Of a DNA stretch of 64,000 nt, positions 18,172-23,466 are shown piece by piece. The DNA is from Holophagales bacterium (GTDB taxonomy: Bacteria; Acidobacteriota; Thermoanaerobaculia; Multivoradales; Multivoraceae), in NCBI GenBank assembly GCA_009845425.1, contig VXZQ01000003.1, forward strand, positions 124,001-188,000, written 5' to 3'. The notes below the pieces were generated by a model, which was not told the DNA's origin, did no database searches, and saw only the letters and a program-made list of their open reading frames with translations. Numbering within the stretch: position 1 is the stretch's first letter; each line of letters starts with the position of its first letter. The position numbers were made by a program, and so were the translations under genes.

Positions 18172-19335
18172 CTACACGTAGTTGGCCGGATGGCCGGTCG
18201 CGAAGACCAGCACGGACTCGCCGCGACGGATCGTACCGGAGTCGCTCAGGCTGGCGACCGCCGCCATCGCCGCGGCGGTTTCGGGACCGATCAGCAGTCC
18301 TTCCTCCGCCGCCATCCTCCGCGTCGTCTCCGCCACCTGATCCTCCTGGACGGCCACTGCCGTTCCCCCGCTCTCGCGGACCGCGCGCAGGACGAGGAAA
18401 TCGCCGATCGCCCGCGGTACCCGCAAGCCCCAGACGCGCGTTTCCGGCGCATCCCAGGGCTCGGCGTGCTCGCTGCCGTCCCGGAAGGCCCGCACGATGG
18501 GGGCACAGCCCGCCATCTGCACGACCGCGAACTTCGCGGGCGGCCCGCTCAGAAGGCCCAGCCCGCGGAGTTCGGCGAACGCTTTCGCCATGCCGACGAT
18601 TCCGGTGCCGCCGCCGGTCGGATAGACGATCCAGTCCGGCAGCCGCCAGCCGAACTGCTCGGCGACCTCGAAACCCATCGTCTTCTTGCCCTCGACCCGG
18701 TACGGCTCGCGCAGGGTCGACAGATCCCAGAGTCCGCCGCCGCGCTCCTTCAGCGCGGCGCCGGCGTCGACCAGGGTACCGCCCGATTCGACAACCTCCG
18801 CACCGAACGCACGACAACGTTCGGCAACGGTAGCCGGAGTATCTTCCGGCAGCGCTACGCGGCAGGGCAGCCCGGCCGCGGCGGCGTAGGCGGCGGCCGA
18901 AACGCCCGCGTTGCCGGCGCTCGGAAGCTGAACCCCGGGGGCGCCGAGTTCACAGGCCCGGTTCACGGCCAGGGAGAGTCCCCGGTCCTTGAACGAACCC
19001 GTCGGGTTTCCCGCTTCGTTCTTGACGAAGACACTCATGCCGTCGGGCCCCGCGCGTTGAAGCCGCACAACGGGAGTGCCGCCTTCGCCCAGATCGACCC
19101 GAGCGTGGAAGCGGGACACCGGCAGCAGCTCGCGATAGCGCCACAGGGTCCAGGGGCGGTGACGGAGATCACGGGCGAGCGTCTCGCCCCGCCACCGATC
19201 CAGTTCGTAGCTCACAAGCCACGGTTTGCCGGCGGGCGACAGGAAAGCCGGCTCGTCCAGAGGCCTCTTGACCCCGGTAGCGGAGCAGACGAGCTCTCGG
19301 GCCCAGCGCTCCCTGCTCTCACCACCTGACTCCAT
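18172..19335 (-). CDS. thrC: Threonine synthase-like PLP enzyme
   Basis: GEGGTPVVRL, KNEAGNPTGSFKDRGLSLAV, PTGGGTGIVGM; start at MESGGE. Confidence 0.85.
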   Translation of the reverse strand: MESGGESRERWARELVCSATGVKRPLDEPAFLSPAGKPWLVSYELDRWRGETLARDLRHRPWTLWRYRELLPVSRFHARVDLGEGGTPVVRLQRAGPDGMSVFVKNEAGNPTGSFKDRGLSLAVNRACELGAPGVQLPSAGNAGVSAAAYAAAAGLPCRVALPEDTPATVAERCRAFGAEVVESGGTLVDAGAALKERGGGLWDLSTLREPYRVEGKKTMGFEVAEQFGWRLPDWIVYPTGGGTGIVGMAKAFAELRGLGLLSGPPAKFAVVQMAGCAPIVRAFRDGSEHAEPWDAPETRVWGLRVPRAIGDFLVLRAVRESGGTAVAVQEDQVAETTRRMAAEEGLLIGPETAAAMAAVASLSDSGTIRRGESVLVFATGHPANYV

Positions 19336-19430
19336 CTTCGCTTCCGCCGTGCCGACCCTAGCAGCGCCGCCGGCGCGCTGTCGTTCAGCAGACACAAGCC
19401 ACTGAAACACAACAACTTACGGCCGAAATG

Positions 19431-19439
19431 TGCTATCAT
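19431..19439 (+). promoter_or_regulatory. Extended -10 promoter element (TGCTATCAT) upstream of pseudokinase
   Basis: TGnTATCAT about 34 nt before the ATG; no clear -35. Confidence 0.45.
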
Positions 19440-19472
19440 CGCCTCCTCGCATCAACTTCTTGGCATTCGCGC

Positions 19473-21221
19473 ATGAGTCAACAAATTGGTCACTTCGAGA
19501 TTCTCCGCCGCCTCGAAGCGAAGCCTGGAGCAGCCTCCTATCTCGGTCGCGACACGCGGGACGAAAGCCCCGTCATTCTCGACACCTGGACCGGAGAGAC
19601 GGCCGAGGCTCAGGCCCTGTTCCTGAAGCGGGCCGCCGCGGTCGGACGGTTGGAACACGTCTCGATCGCCCGGATCCTCGACTTCGGAATCGACGGCGCA
19701 ACGTCCTGTCGAATCGAACAGTCCCTGGGCACCGAGACGCTGGCGGCGCGCCTTGAACGGTGCGACAAACTGCCGATCCGCACGGTTCTGGGCTGGCTTG
19801 CGCAGGTTGCGCGCGCACTGGAACACGCGCATGGCCAGGGCGTCGTCCACGGAGACGTCCACCCCGGCGCCATCACGATCCGTTCCGACGACAGCGCCGC
19901 TCTTCGGGGTTTCGCGAGTCCGCGACCGTACGCACACGTCAGGTACGGCGCACCGGAGCTGCTGCACGGCGGCACTGTCGATGTGCGAAGCGACGTCTAT
20001 GCGTTTGGTGTGCTCACGCACCGGGTGCTGACCTTCCAGCCCGCCGAACGGCAGGTGCCCTCCCGCCGGCTGAAATCGAAGGACCGGCGTTTCGTGCAAA
20101 AGGCAATCAAGGCCCAGCTTCCACAACATGTGGCGAGATCACTCGTTACCGTTCTCGACGCCTGCCTCCGGGACGATCCTGCGAAGCGTGCAGCGGACTT
20201 CGGCCCCATTGTCAACGCCCTCGAAGACGCGCACGAGGAACTCGTCGGGACGCCCAGCGACGAGGCCTCCCCGCAGGGCGAGCCGAACGACTGGACGGCC
20301 ACGACGGTGCAGACACCCAGAGCGTCCGACTCCTCGCTGATCGAAGTCGAGATCAACGCAGGGGTCGCGCCGCCGGAGACGACTTCTCCGCCGACTCTCG
20401 ACACGGTCGCCGACGCGATCCGGCGTCCGCCCCGCTCCCGCCTCCGGCGCCGCTGGTTGACGTTCGCCACGGTCGCCGGAACCGCGCTCTGGCTCGGCGG
20501 TACGCTGTGGTGGTCGAAGGGTAGTCCGGTCGCCGGATCGGAGGCCCCCGAACCACGGACCGAGCCTCCGGTCGAACGGCAGGCGCTCGCCTCGGAGACC
20601 GAAGACGAGAGTCCCGCCTCGGAGCCCGTCAGCCTGACTACGCGCGAGAATCCGACGCCCCAACCCCCAGACGCGACTCCAGCCGTTAGCCGGGGAACCG
20701 GCCGCCTGGCCCTGGCGCCCGCCTGGAATCCGCAAATCACCGTCTCTGTCGACGGCGAGGCGCCCGTGGTCCTCGACCGCAGAAGGGTGTTCGAAGTCGA
20801 AGCCGAGATCGATCATGTGCTCACGTTCGAACTTGTCACTCGCGACTACCAGATCCGGGAACAGGTCCTGACCCAGGTCGGCGTGGACCGGTTGCTGGAG
20901 ACGCCGGTGCCTCTGGTTCGGCCCGGCGCCGTCAGCATCGCGCCGGCAACCGAATCGGAACGTCCCGTCTTCGTACGCATCGGCGATGAAGCGATCGGCT
21001 GGACGCCCATCCTCGACCTGCCCGTCCCCGCAGGCGCCCACGTCCTCAGCCTTCTCCGAAATCCCAGGTGGCAGCCGGAGGACCGGATCGACCAGAAGAT
21101 CCAGGTGAACTCCAGGCAGGAGACGATGGTCCAGTTCGACCTCGAAGCTGAACCGCCCGTGCTGATCGTCAACGGCCAGAGGATCGAGTACGCTCCGGTT
21201 GATGAGGGGCCCGCGCCGTAG
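19473..21221 (+). CDS. Membrane-anchored pseudokinase with PEGA-like extracytoplasmic region
   Basis: Kinase fold recognisable (HGDVHPGAI, YGAPELLHGGTVDVRSDVYAFGVL) but catalytic residues replaced; one TM (WLTFATVAGTALWLGGTLWW); two PEGA-like segments. Confidence 0.8.
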   Translation: MSQQIGHFEILRRLEAKPGAASYLGRDTRDESPVILDTWTGETAEAQALFLKRAAAVGRLEHVSIARILDFGIDGATSCRIEQSLGTETLAARLERCDKLPIRTVLGWLAQVARALEHAHGQGVVHGDVHPGAITIRSDDSAALRGFASPRPYAHVRYGAPELLHGGTVDVRSDVYAFGVLTHRVLTFQPAERQVPSRRLKSKDRRFVQKAIKAQLPQHVARSLVTVLDACLRDDPAKRAADFGPIVNALEDAHEELVGTPSDEASPQGEPNDWTATTVQTPRASDSSLIEVEINAGVAPPETTSPPTLDTVADAIRRPPRSRLRRRWLTFATVAGTALWLGGTLWWSKGSPVAGSEAPEPRTEPPVERQALASETEDESPASEPVSLTTRENPTPQPPDATPAVSRGTGRLALAPAWNPQITVSVDGEAPVVLDRRRVFEVEAEIDHVLTFELVTRDYQIREQVLTQVGVDRLLETPVPLVRPGAVSIAPATESERPVFVRIGDEAIGWTPILDLPVPAGAHVLSLLRNPRWQPEDRIDQKIQVNSRQETMVQFDLEAEPPVLIVNGQRIEYAPVDEGPAP

Positions 21222-22179
21222 CAGCGACGCCGGCGCTGACGCCACGCCGCTCGACGTCAGTGTCCTGGTGCCGGTCCTCGACGAAAGCGCGACGGTCTCC
21301 GCCCTGGCCGAGCGCGTCCTTGCCAACCTAGACGCCCTTCAGGTCCTGGCGGAACTCGTGTTCATCGATGACGGCTCGACCGACGGCACGTCCGATGCGG
21401 TTCGCCGCGAACACGAGCGCGACCCCCGGGTGCGGCTGATTCGGCTGCGGCGGAACTTTGGCAAGGCAGCCGCCCTCTCGGCCGGGGTCGATCACTCGCG
21501 GGGCCGGATTCTCGTCACGATGGACGGCGACCTGCAGGACGATCCCGACGAGATTCCGCGACTGCTGCAGGCGCTGGAAAACGGCCCCCTCGATCTCGTC
21601 TCCGGCTGGAAGCGCACCCGGCGCGACCCGTGGCGCCGTCGACTGGCGTCCAGGGTCTTCAACTGGGTGACGCGCACCCTCTCGAACGTCAGGCTGCACG
21701 ACTTCAACTCCGGCTTCAAGGCCTACCGCCGGGAAGTTCTGGAGCAGGTCGCCGTGTACGGCGAACTCCATCGTTACATCCCCGTTCTCGCCAGCCGGCG
21801 CGGTTTTCTCGTCGGCGAGATTCCGGTAGCGCACCATCCGCGCCGCGTCGGCCGCAGCCGGTACGGATGGGACCGCTCCTACAAGGGACCCGTGGACCTG
21901 ATCACGGTCCTGTTCATCAGCCGCTTCACGCGCCGCCCGCTGCACCTCTTCGGCCCGATCGGCCTGATCAGTTTCGCGGCCGGTCTGGGTATCTGTACCT
22001 ATCTCGCCGCGCTCTGGTTCGCCGGCGCCTCGCTGTCCAACCGGCCGCTGCTGCTGCTCGGGGTCCTGTTGATGGTCCTGGGCATCCAGATCGTCACAAC
22101 TGGCCTGATCGGCGAACTGATCACCTTCAAGAACTTCCGGCGGCCCGACAGCTACTCGGTGCGAGAGCGGGTCGGCTGA
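21202..22179 (+). CDS. GT2 family glycosyltransferase with two C-terminal TMs (DPM1/GtrB-like)
   Basis: SVLVPVLDESATV...FIDDGSTDGT...TMDGDLQDDPDEI...FNSGFKAYRREV. Confidence 0.92.
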   Translation: MRGPRRSSDAGADATPLDVSVLVPVLDESATVSALAERVLANLDALQVLAELVFIDDGSTDGTSDAVRREHERDPRVRLIRLRRNFGKAAALSAGVDHSRGRILVTMDGDLQDDPDEIPRLLQALENGPLDLVSGWKRTRRDPWRRRLASRVFNWVTRTLSNVRLHDFNSGFKAYRREVLEQVAVYGELHRYIPVLASRRGFLVGEIPVAHHPRRVGRSRYGWDRSYKGPVDLITVLFISRFTRRPLHLFGPIGLISFAAGLGICTYLAALWFAGASLSNRPLLLLGVLLMVLGIQIVTTGLIGELITFKNFRRPDSYSVRERVG

Positions 22180-22185
22180 ACCCGG

Positions 22186-23466
22186 TTGCCCGGCGGCAGG
22201 AGCGCGACCCTGCGCATCCTCTTCCTCACCCAAACCTACCCTCGCTGGCCCGGCGACACGGCCGGACCGTTCATCCGTGAACTGGCCCGTGGGCTGGTCC
22301 GAGCCGGCGACCGCGTCACCGTTCTCACGCCGCGCGCGGCGCACGTGCGTCGCGCCTGGAACGACGACGGCGTCGAAGTTTGCTCGTTCGCGTACGCCCC
22401 CCGTCCACTGGAGGTCCTCGGCTACGGCCGAAGCCTAGCCGCGGACGAACATGTACGGCCGGGCGCCGCACTCGCCGCTCCCCTCTATCTGCTCGCGGCG
22501 GCGAGGGCGGTGGCCCGGCATCTCGGGCGGGAACGGCACGACCTGTTCCACGCTCATTGGGTCGCCCCGAACGGGTTGGTGGCCCTCTGGCCGGGGGTGC
22601 ATGGAAGAGGAACGCTGATCGCGGCGGGCCTCCACGGCAGCGACGTCTTCCTGGCCGAGAAGGCGCTCGCGCGGCCAGCGATCCGTCGCGCCCTGACCCG
22701 TTGCGATTTGCTGACCGGATGCTCGCCCGAACTTGTCGAGAGAGTCCGGCGGATCGGCTTTCGCGGCAAGCCGTCGCGCGTCATCCCCTACGGCGTCGAT
22801 ACAGACATGTTCCGCCCGCTGGCGGAGGTCCCGGACGAGCCGGTGGAGGAAACCTGGCGCGAACGCCTGAACATCCCAGACAACTCCACCGTCCTGCTCG
22901 GTGTCGGCCGCCTGGCGACGAAGAAGGGCTTCCAGGTGCTGATCGATGTCCTGCCGCGCCTGCTGTCCGATTTCAGCGACTTGCACGCGATCATTGCCGG
23001 CGATGGCGATCAGATGGCGGATTTCCGGGCGACAGTCGACGGATGGAGGCCCGACCACACGGGCCGGATCCACCTACCCGGCGCCGTCGCCCACGACGAT
23101 CTGCCCGGTCTCTACCGCAGTGCCGACCTGTTCGTCCTCCCCGCCGTTCACGATCCCCAAGGCAACGTCGACGGCCTGCCCAACGTGATCCTGGAGGCCC
23201 TCGCCAGTGGGCTCCCGGTGGTCGCCACTTCGGTTTCCGGCATCCCTCTGGCGGTCGAATCGGGAGTCCAGGGAGTCCTCGTTCCGGAGCAGGATCGGGC
23301 CGCTCTGAGGGAAGCGATCGCGGGCATCCTCGGCAATCCGGAACAGCGGCGCCTGATGGGCGCCCGGGCCCGCTCCCGCGCGGTTTCCCAACTGACCTGG
23401 GACATCGTGGCCGGCAGATACCGGCAGGCCTACCTCGATGCTCTGACGGATGGCGACCGGCGATGA
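22186..23466 (+). CDS. GT4 family glycosyltransferase
   Basis: RILFLTQTYPRWPGDTAGPFIRELARGL...HAHWVAPNG...LLGVGRLATKKGFQVLI...EALASGLPVVAT; TTG start. Confidence 0.92.
   Translation: MPGGRSATLRILFLTQTYPRWPGDTAGPFIRELARGLVRAGDRVTVLTPRAAHVRRAWNDDGVEVCSFAYAPRPLEVLGYGRSLAADEHVRPGAALAAPLYLLAAARAVARHLGRERHDLFHAHWVAPNGLVALWPGVHGRGTLIAAGLHGSDVFLAEKALARPAIRRALTRCDLLTGCSPELVERVRRIGFRGKPSRVIPYGVDTDMFRPLAEVPDEPVEETWRERLNIPDNSTVLLGVGRLATKKGFQVLIDVLPRLLSDFSDLHAIIAGDGDQMADFRATVDGWRPDHTGRIHLPGAVAHDDLPGLYRSADLFVLPAVHDPQGNVDGLPNVILEALASGLPVVATSVSGIPLAVESGVQGVLVPEQDRAALREAIAGILGNPEQRRLMGARARSRAVSQLTWDIVAGRYRQAYLDALTDGDRR

Follow-up and report, generated by a model that had tools for sequence, protein, structure and literature searches.

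The window analysed here is a stretch of 64,000 nucleotides from a Holophagales bacterium (GenBank assembly GCA_009845425.1, contig VXZQ01000003.1, positions 124,001 to 188,000), and its positions 19473 to 21221 encode a predicted single-span membrane protein with a kinase-like cytoplasmic domain, which we term PK-A. A first-pass annotation made from the letters alone had suggested that this protein is a pseudokinase acting as scaffold or receptor, and not an enzyme. Its features in the window are as follows:

19473..21221 (+): PK-A, putative receptor pseudokinase; intact open reading frame (ORF) of 582 residues, ATG 19473 to TAG 21221
19411..19472 (+): leader, conserved among the upstream 60 bp of 17 loci compared, with an extended -10-like element, TGCTATCAT
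19473..20246 (+): kinase-like domain, residues 1-258
19512..19544 (+): LEAKPGAASYL, a degenerate Gly loop where active orthologues read GxGGFG
19581..19583 (+): Asp37, replacing the β3 lysine of VAIK; invariant in 21/21 genomes
19629..19631 (+): Arg53, replacing the αC glutamate; 20/21 genomes
19848..19871 (+): catalytic loop HGDVHPGA; HRD Asp kept as D128, with Arg to Gly, Lys to His and Asn to Ala/Met/Leu
19905..19913 (+): R[G/S/A]F, replacing DFG; Arg145 and Phe147 invariant
20454..20513 (+): transmembrane (TM) segment, residues 328-347; the best-conserved part
20694..21143 (+): extracytoplasmic double PEGA-like region, residues 408-557

A receptor gene with a degenerate kinase domain

The N-terminal domain of PK-A is recovered by two Pfam kinase models (PF07714, E=6.5e-15 over residues 27-240; PF00069, E=3.1e-13), and its sequence matches the solved structures of PknA, PknI and StkP, down to E=7.5e-10. 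The profile match spans both lobes and is accompanied by a kinase-like secondary structure, which together assign the domain to the Hanks-type (eukaryotic-like) fold; the predicted kinase fold is far beyond chance. Structure prediction, a check proposed with the first-pass annotation, points the same way: a Foldseek search with an AlphaFold2 (AF2) model retrieved Nek7, PknB and EphA2 at E of about 1e-11, from a model of only moderate confidence.

The positions first read for the D37 codon (19581), for HGDVHPGAI (19848-19874) and for RGF hold, as do the degenerate Gly loop and the retention of APE and of DVRSDVYAFG in the C-lobe. The accompanying statement that all catalytic motifs are replaced was too strong: the Gly loop, the lysine, the catalytic-loop asparagine and DFG are indeed lost, but the HRD aspartate survives within an HGD motif, D128 being invariant. 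When the alignment was inspected for a Lys or Asp at the catalytic positions, the β3 Lys and the DFG Asp proved to be absent, as is the Asn, in 21/21 genomes of the genus, only the HRD Asp being present, so that PK-A lacks the residue set of an active Hanks-type kinase. A pseudokinase is defined as missing at least one of the β3 Lys, HRD Asp and DFG Asp (PMC12599244); two of the three are missing in PK-A, and all three in PK-B, a second kinase-like protein described below. The activation loop is about 13 residues shorter than in the active orthologues, and their Thr is gone. As judged from these residues, the domain is predicted to be unable to transfer phosphate.

The substitutions are themselves conserved in relatives, being invariant or nearly so across the 21 genomes. 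Asp37, HGD-x-His, Arg145 and Phe147 do not vary among orthologues down to 56% identity, and the C-lobe hallmarks (the APE Glu162, Arg239 and Asp174) are likewise invariant. It is possible that Asp37 and Arg53 form a salt bridge, a charge swap of the usual Lys-Glu pair; one of the genomes has Gln in place of Arg53.

The single TM segment originally reported scores weakly on the Kyte-Doolittle scale (1.1); by the Wimley-White octanol measure, at -7.5 kcal/mol, it stands out clearly, as do those of the active orthologues. As to the two PEGA-like segments, PEGA (PF08308) matches were obtained in 7 of the 8 scanned members of the ectodomain family at a permissive E<=10 (best, 6.9e-7), but the window's ectodomain alone has no Pfam match, and a PDB profile search with it yielded nothing convincing. 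An alternative in-frame ATG at 19428 is missing or replaced in several orthologues. The 60 bp 5' of the gene are unusually conserved, with TGCTATCAT and, in the closer orthologues, a near-unchanged TCAACTTCTTGGCATTCGCGC leader before the ATG; no obvious Shine-Dalgarno sequence is seen in this leader (19411-19472).

Distribution, selection and descent

A scan of 84,980 genomes yielded 16 PK-A orthologues, and in a scan of relatives all 21 genomes of the genus had a single copy each. The genus comprises Candidatus Multivorans-like Acidobacteriota and includes, by lineage, Ca. Multivorans thiocomprendens (L013); in the same scan of relatives the pseudokinase form was not found elsewhere in the class. 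Several other public records, namely metagenome-assembled genomes (MAGs) of Holophagales and Thermoanaerobaculia, we take to be largely sponge-derived. The orthologues are 56-97% identical, and the reading frame is intact in 20/21 genomes. In one genome (G010) the gene (L018:6001-7776) carries a compensated frameshift over part of the ectodomain, either a sequencing error or a real change.

Pairwise ratios of nonsynonymous to synonymous substitution (dN/dS, Nei-Gojobori) are about 0-0.06 in the TM segment, 0.15-0.22 in the ectodomain and 0.20-0.44 in the kinase domain, and rise to about 1 in the linkers. Because the ratio is low in the folded parts and reaches about 1 between them, the former are maintained while the linkers drift, and these values indicate that PK-A is under purifying selection.

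Outside the genus, the best matches to PK-A are kinases of the same architecture with a co-linear ectodomain. Of 72 genomes from the order, 48 contain this ectodomain by profile search, with few exceptions as a single copy; two sister genera belonging to the same family are among them. The 18 outside orthologues with a complete kinase domain, including those of G001 and G023 in that family, all keep VAxK, the αC Glu, HRDxKPxN, DFG and the activation-loop Thr. These active orthologues (e.g. L194, L196, L204, L188, L189) share with PK-A the kinase-TM-double PEGA-like layout, co-linearity over the full length including the ectodomain, neighbouring genes and usually a single copy per genome; their catalytic residues are complete and their activation loop has its Thr, whereas of all these PK-A keeps only the HRD Asp. 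By these shared characters PK-A falls within the order's orthologue group of PEGA-type receptor kinases. In the ectodomain tree it forms one clade (support 100/99) beside G023 (95/90), a placement that rises to 98/95 when the long-branch G001 is left out and is unresolved when G023 itself is removed. The neighbourhood, the co-linearity and the ectodomain tree together make PK-A the vertically inherited orthologue of the order's PEGA-type receptor Ser/Thr kinase, catalytically dead as judged from its residues, and date its inactivation to a time when the sister genera had already diverged. We consider it likely that PK-A now serves as a phosphorylation-independent transmembrane sensor or scaffold. 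In the f2 genomes (L156, L190, L191, L192, L193) a second, tandem kinase precedes the active orthologue.

The kinome of the genus and the neighbourhood of PK-A

The second kinase-like protein of the genus lies apart from the PK-A locus:

L040:1201-2283 (-) and G000:C10:6378-7457: PK-B, adjoining a VWFA-type gene

PK-B has 360 residues and a C-terminal hydrophobic anchor (L040/L102), and is present as a single copy in 21/21 genomes. It has HG[S/G]LRP for HRDxKP, Gln, Glu or Ala for the β3 Lys, and APS for DFG. Its relative in G023 (L220:6551-8119), followed by the same VWFA-type gene, is already without the motifs; PK-B thus lost them before PK-A did.

In the window's genome (98% complete) PK-A and PK-B are the only two kinase-profile matches, and exactly this pair, both dead, makes up the kinase-like proteins of 15 of the 21 genomes. 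Matches number 2-5 per genome within the genus, against at least 13, and mostly at least about 30, in other genomes of the order, where counts were scored up to about 30 per genome and are to be read as lower bounds; the sister genera have 60-70, with about 70 in G023. The counts derive from one Pfam model (two for the window's genome) and cover Hanks-type kinases only, as distinct from histidine kinases, HPr kinases and other non-Hanks enzymes. FHA domains, of which the sister genera have 14-21, number zero in 16/21 genomes of the genus, and one PP2C-like protein is left in most. The titled genomes of the genus are MAGs, 19/21 being more than 90% complete and one two-match genome (G008) standing in 3 contigs; the missing kinases could in part reflect MAG assembly gaps.

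Extra kinases occur in six of the 21 genomes, between one and three in each and ten altogether, and all nine examined look canonical and, by their motifs, active. In five of these six genomes the extra kinases accompany FHA and PP2C genes, mostly on one contig, as a separate cluster. This FHA/PP2C/active-kinase cassette, as read by ORF, is patchy in its occurrence (G006:C34, G009:C111, G018:C23, G020:C1, G021:C8; e.g. L225). In G009, G020 and G021 some 100 kb separate it from PK-A, so that it may date from the ancestor of the genus and have been lost several times since. In addition, a lone canonical-looking kinase (L056; G022:C230), perhaps belonging to a defence or mobile element, adjoins a PIN-domain-like ORF on a contig of 4.5 kb.

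We tentatively consider that the core Hanks-type kinome of the genus may consist entirely of pseudokinases, its inherited active kinases and, in most species, every FHA reader having been lost, with a receptor and a tail-anchored version of the fold kept for phosphorylation-free envelope signalling or scaffolding and the non-catalytic output alone under selection; we hold this reading at slightly less than even weight.

PK-A is flanked in the window by the following genes:

18172..19410 (-): pyridoxal phosphate (PLP)-dependent, threonine-synthase-like gene; divergent neighbour, common to some active orthologue loci
21199..22179 (+): family 2 glycosyltransferase (GT2) with C-terminal hydrophobic helices, presumably of the polyprenyl-phosphate type; overlaps or lies just 3' of PK-A
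22186..23466 (+): family 4 glycosyltransferase (GT4), in the same cluster as PK-A and GT2

The neighbours of PK-A include arginase, symporters, PLP enzymes, GT2/GT4 and a CAAX-type protease, with no type VIIb secretion locus among them. Arginase, a Na/Ala symporter, the PLP gene and the GT4-GT2 pair recur at active orthologue loci of four families in varying combinations. GT2 and GT4 lie downstream of PK-A in every one of the 16 genomes whose flanks were examined, and several relatives have the pair close to the active orthologue; their products are therefore the first candidates for partners of PK-A, though the chances are against this guess. In the sister genera, a syntenic PK-A ancestor directly 5' of GT2 was considered and rejected, the gene there reading, where identified, as a BTAD-type regulator and not as a kinase; the actual orthologues in relatives were located through the ectodomain profile. 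At L151, L154, L155 and L156 a BTAD/SARP-type regulator stands directly 5' of the GT2-GT4 pair, the place that PK-A occupies in the genus.

Proposed mode of action and comparison with known pseudokinases

The interpretation of PK-A as a pseudokinase receptor or scaffold rather than an enzyme, as first proposed, is favoured by losses that are fixed in 21/21 genomes and set against outside orthologues intact in 18/18, by the purifying selection on the gene, and by 15/21 genomes that are without an active Hanks kinase. In such a scheme the PEGA-like ectodomain would sense the state of the envelope, which is probably the target of sensing; the strictly conserved TM segment would transmit the signal or cluster the receptor; and the pseudokinase domain would bind a cytosolic or membrane partner, the signal being passed by conformation or clustering, without phosphate transfer. 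The invariant C-lobe hallmarks fit a preserved protein-binding platform. Several observations weigh on the other side. Retention of the HRD Asp and the invariance of several substituted residues could mean retained or altered chemistry. The confidence of the PK-A model (predicted local distance difference test, pLDDT) is about 70 for some stretches of the kinase domain and below 50 elsewhere, the PK-A and PK-B models being weak because only 20 close sequences were usable. The link to GT2/GT4 consists of gene order, the pair near the active orthologue is convergent with it, and the gene 5' of GT2 in several relatives reads as a BTAD-type regulator.

The same retained residues motivate the view that PK-A is an atypical enzyme, with a pocket (Asp37, Asp128, His130, Arg145) repurposed as in AMPylation by SelO, glutamylation by SidJ or the metal-free nucleotide binding proposed for DLHK. 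D37, H126, D128, H130 and R145 are invariant over orthologues 56-97% identical, beyond the obvious need of a bare scaffold, and the HRD Asp is also kept in DLHK (PMC12599244); yet with the Gly loop, β3 Lys, Asn and DFG Asp gone and the activation loop largely deleted, we regard this as improbable. Less probable still is an accessory role after the manner of MviN and FhaA, in which PK-A would modulate an active Hanks kinase, or be its substrate, and recruit an FHA protein. MviN, a bacterial envelope pseudokinase, is the closest functional precedent (PMC12599244), but 15/21 genomes have besides PK-A only PK-B, itself without catalytic residues, and the five species in which extra kinases accompany FHA and PP2C genes carry them in a separate cluster. 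In most species PK-A would therefore have neither a kinase to help nor a MviN-FhaA-like phospho-scaffold to join, and we reject the former role for the 15 genomes without an active Hanks kinase and the latter for the 16 without an FHA domain.

A hetero-complex of PK-A and PK-B as the functional unit is a better candidate, though an unlikely one: both are single-copy in 21/21 genomes, predicted to be membrane-anchored and the sole kinome remnant in 15, but their genes are unlinked, and PK-B, with its dead relative in G023, lost its motifs earlier. That PK-A is a decaying pseudogene could be argued from the lost catalytic residues, the collapsed kinome and the compensated frameshift in G010; the intact frame in the other 20 genomes, dN/dS well below 1 in all structured regions, the near-invariant TM segment and the conserved leader leave that reading with hardly any weight, and we reject it on dN/dS and the intact ORFs. 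A phosphorylation-independent transmembrane sensor or scaffold thus remains our preferred interpretation of PK-A.

Bacterial pseudokinase families were reviewed in 2025 as ActPs1-3, DLHK, GLW, CP1 and DYD, together with MviN and EssB, in an article whose main text does not mention Acidobacteria (PMC12599244). Like PK-A, MviN (MurJ) of the ActPs3 family is membrane-associated with a short activation loop, and it is tied to envelope biosynthesis; its tail is phosphorylated by PknB, leading to recruitment of FhaA (PMC12599244). In contrast to PK-A, its pseudokinase domain is one part of a larger transmembrane protein that peptidoglycan synthesis requires, and kinase-dependent FHA recruitment has no counterpart in most species carrying PK-A. 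EssB/YukC, a non-catalytic scaffold, resembles PK-A as a single-TM cytoplasmic pseudokinase with a degenerate Gly loop and a short activation loop (PMC12599244), but is a component of the type VIIb secretion system of Firmicutes, whereas PK-A has a PEGA-like ectodomain and clusters with glycosyltransferases and housekeeping genes. DLHK likewise keeps the HRD Asp and has lost the β3 Lys and DFG Asp (PMC12599244); unlike PK-A, it retains the catalytic-loop Asn, has no TM segment and is often tied to helicase domains. A relationship to EssB or DLHK was rejected on these features (no type VIIb locus; Asn to Ala/Met/Leu and a predicted TM segment). PK-A, failing the defining features of MviN, DLHK and EssB, thus appears to represent a new pseudokinase lineage, as set apart by published descriptions rather than by family profiles.

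Non-catalytic roles of receptor kinases have been suspected and are usually masked by active paralogues. The genus offers a natural experiment in this regard: a receptor that is active in every complete relative is dead here, yet its TM segment and ectodomain are strongly selected, and the pair of active and dead orthologues offers a test of receptor kinase function without phosphate transfer. The unusual part is the all-pseudokinase kinome, which in 15 genomes stands at 2/2 pseudokinases, beyond the 67% that is the highest share cited for a bacterial kinome in the 2025 review (PMC12599244).
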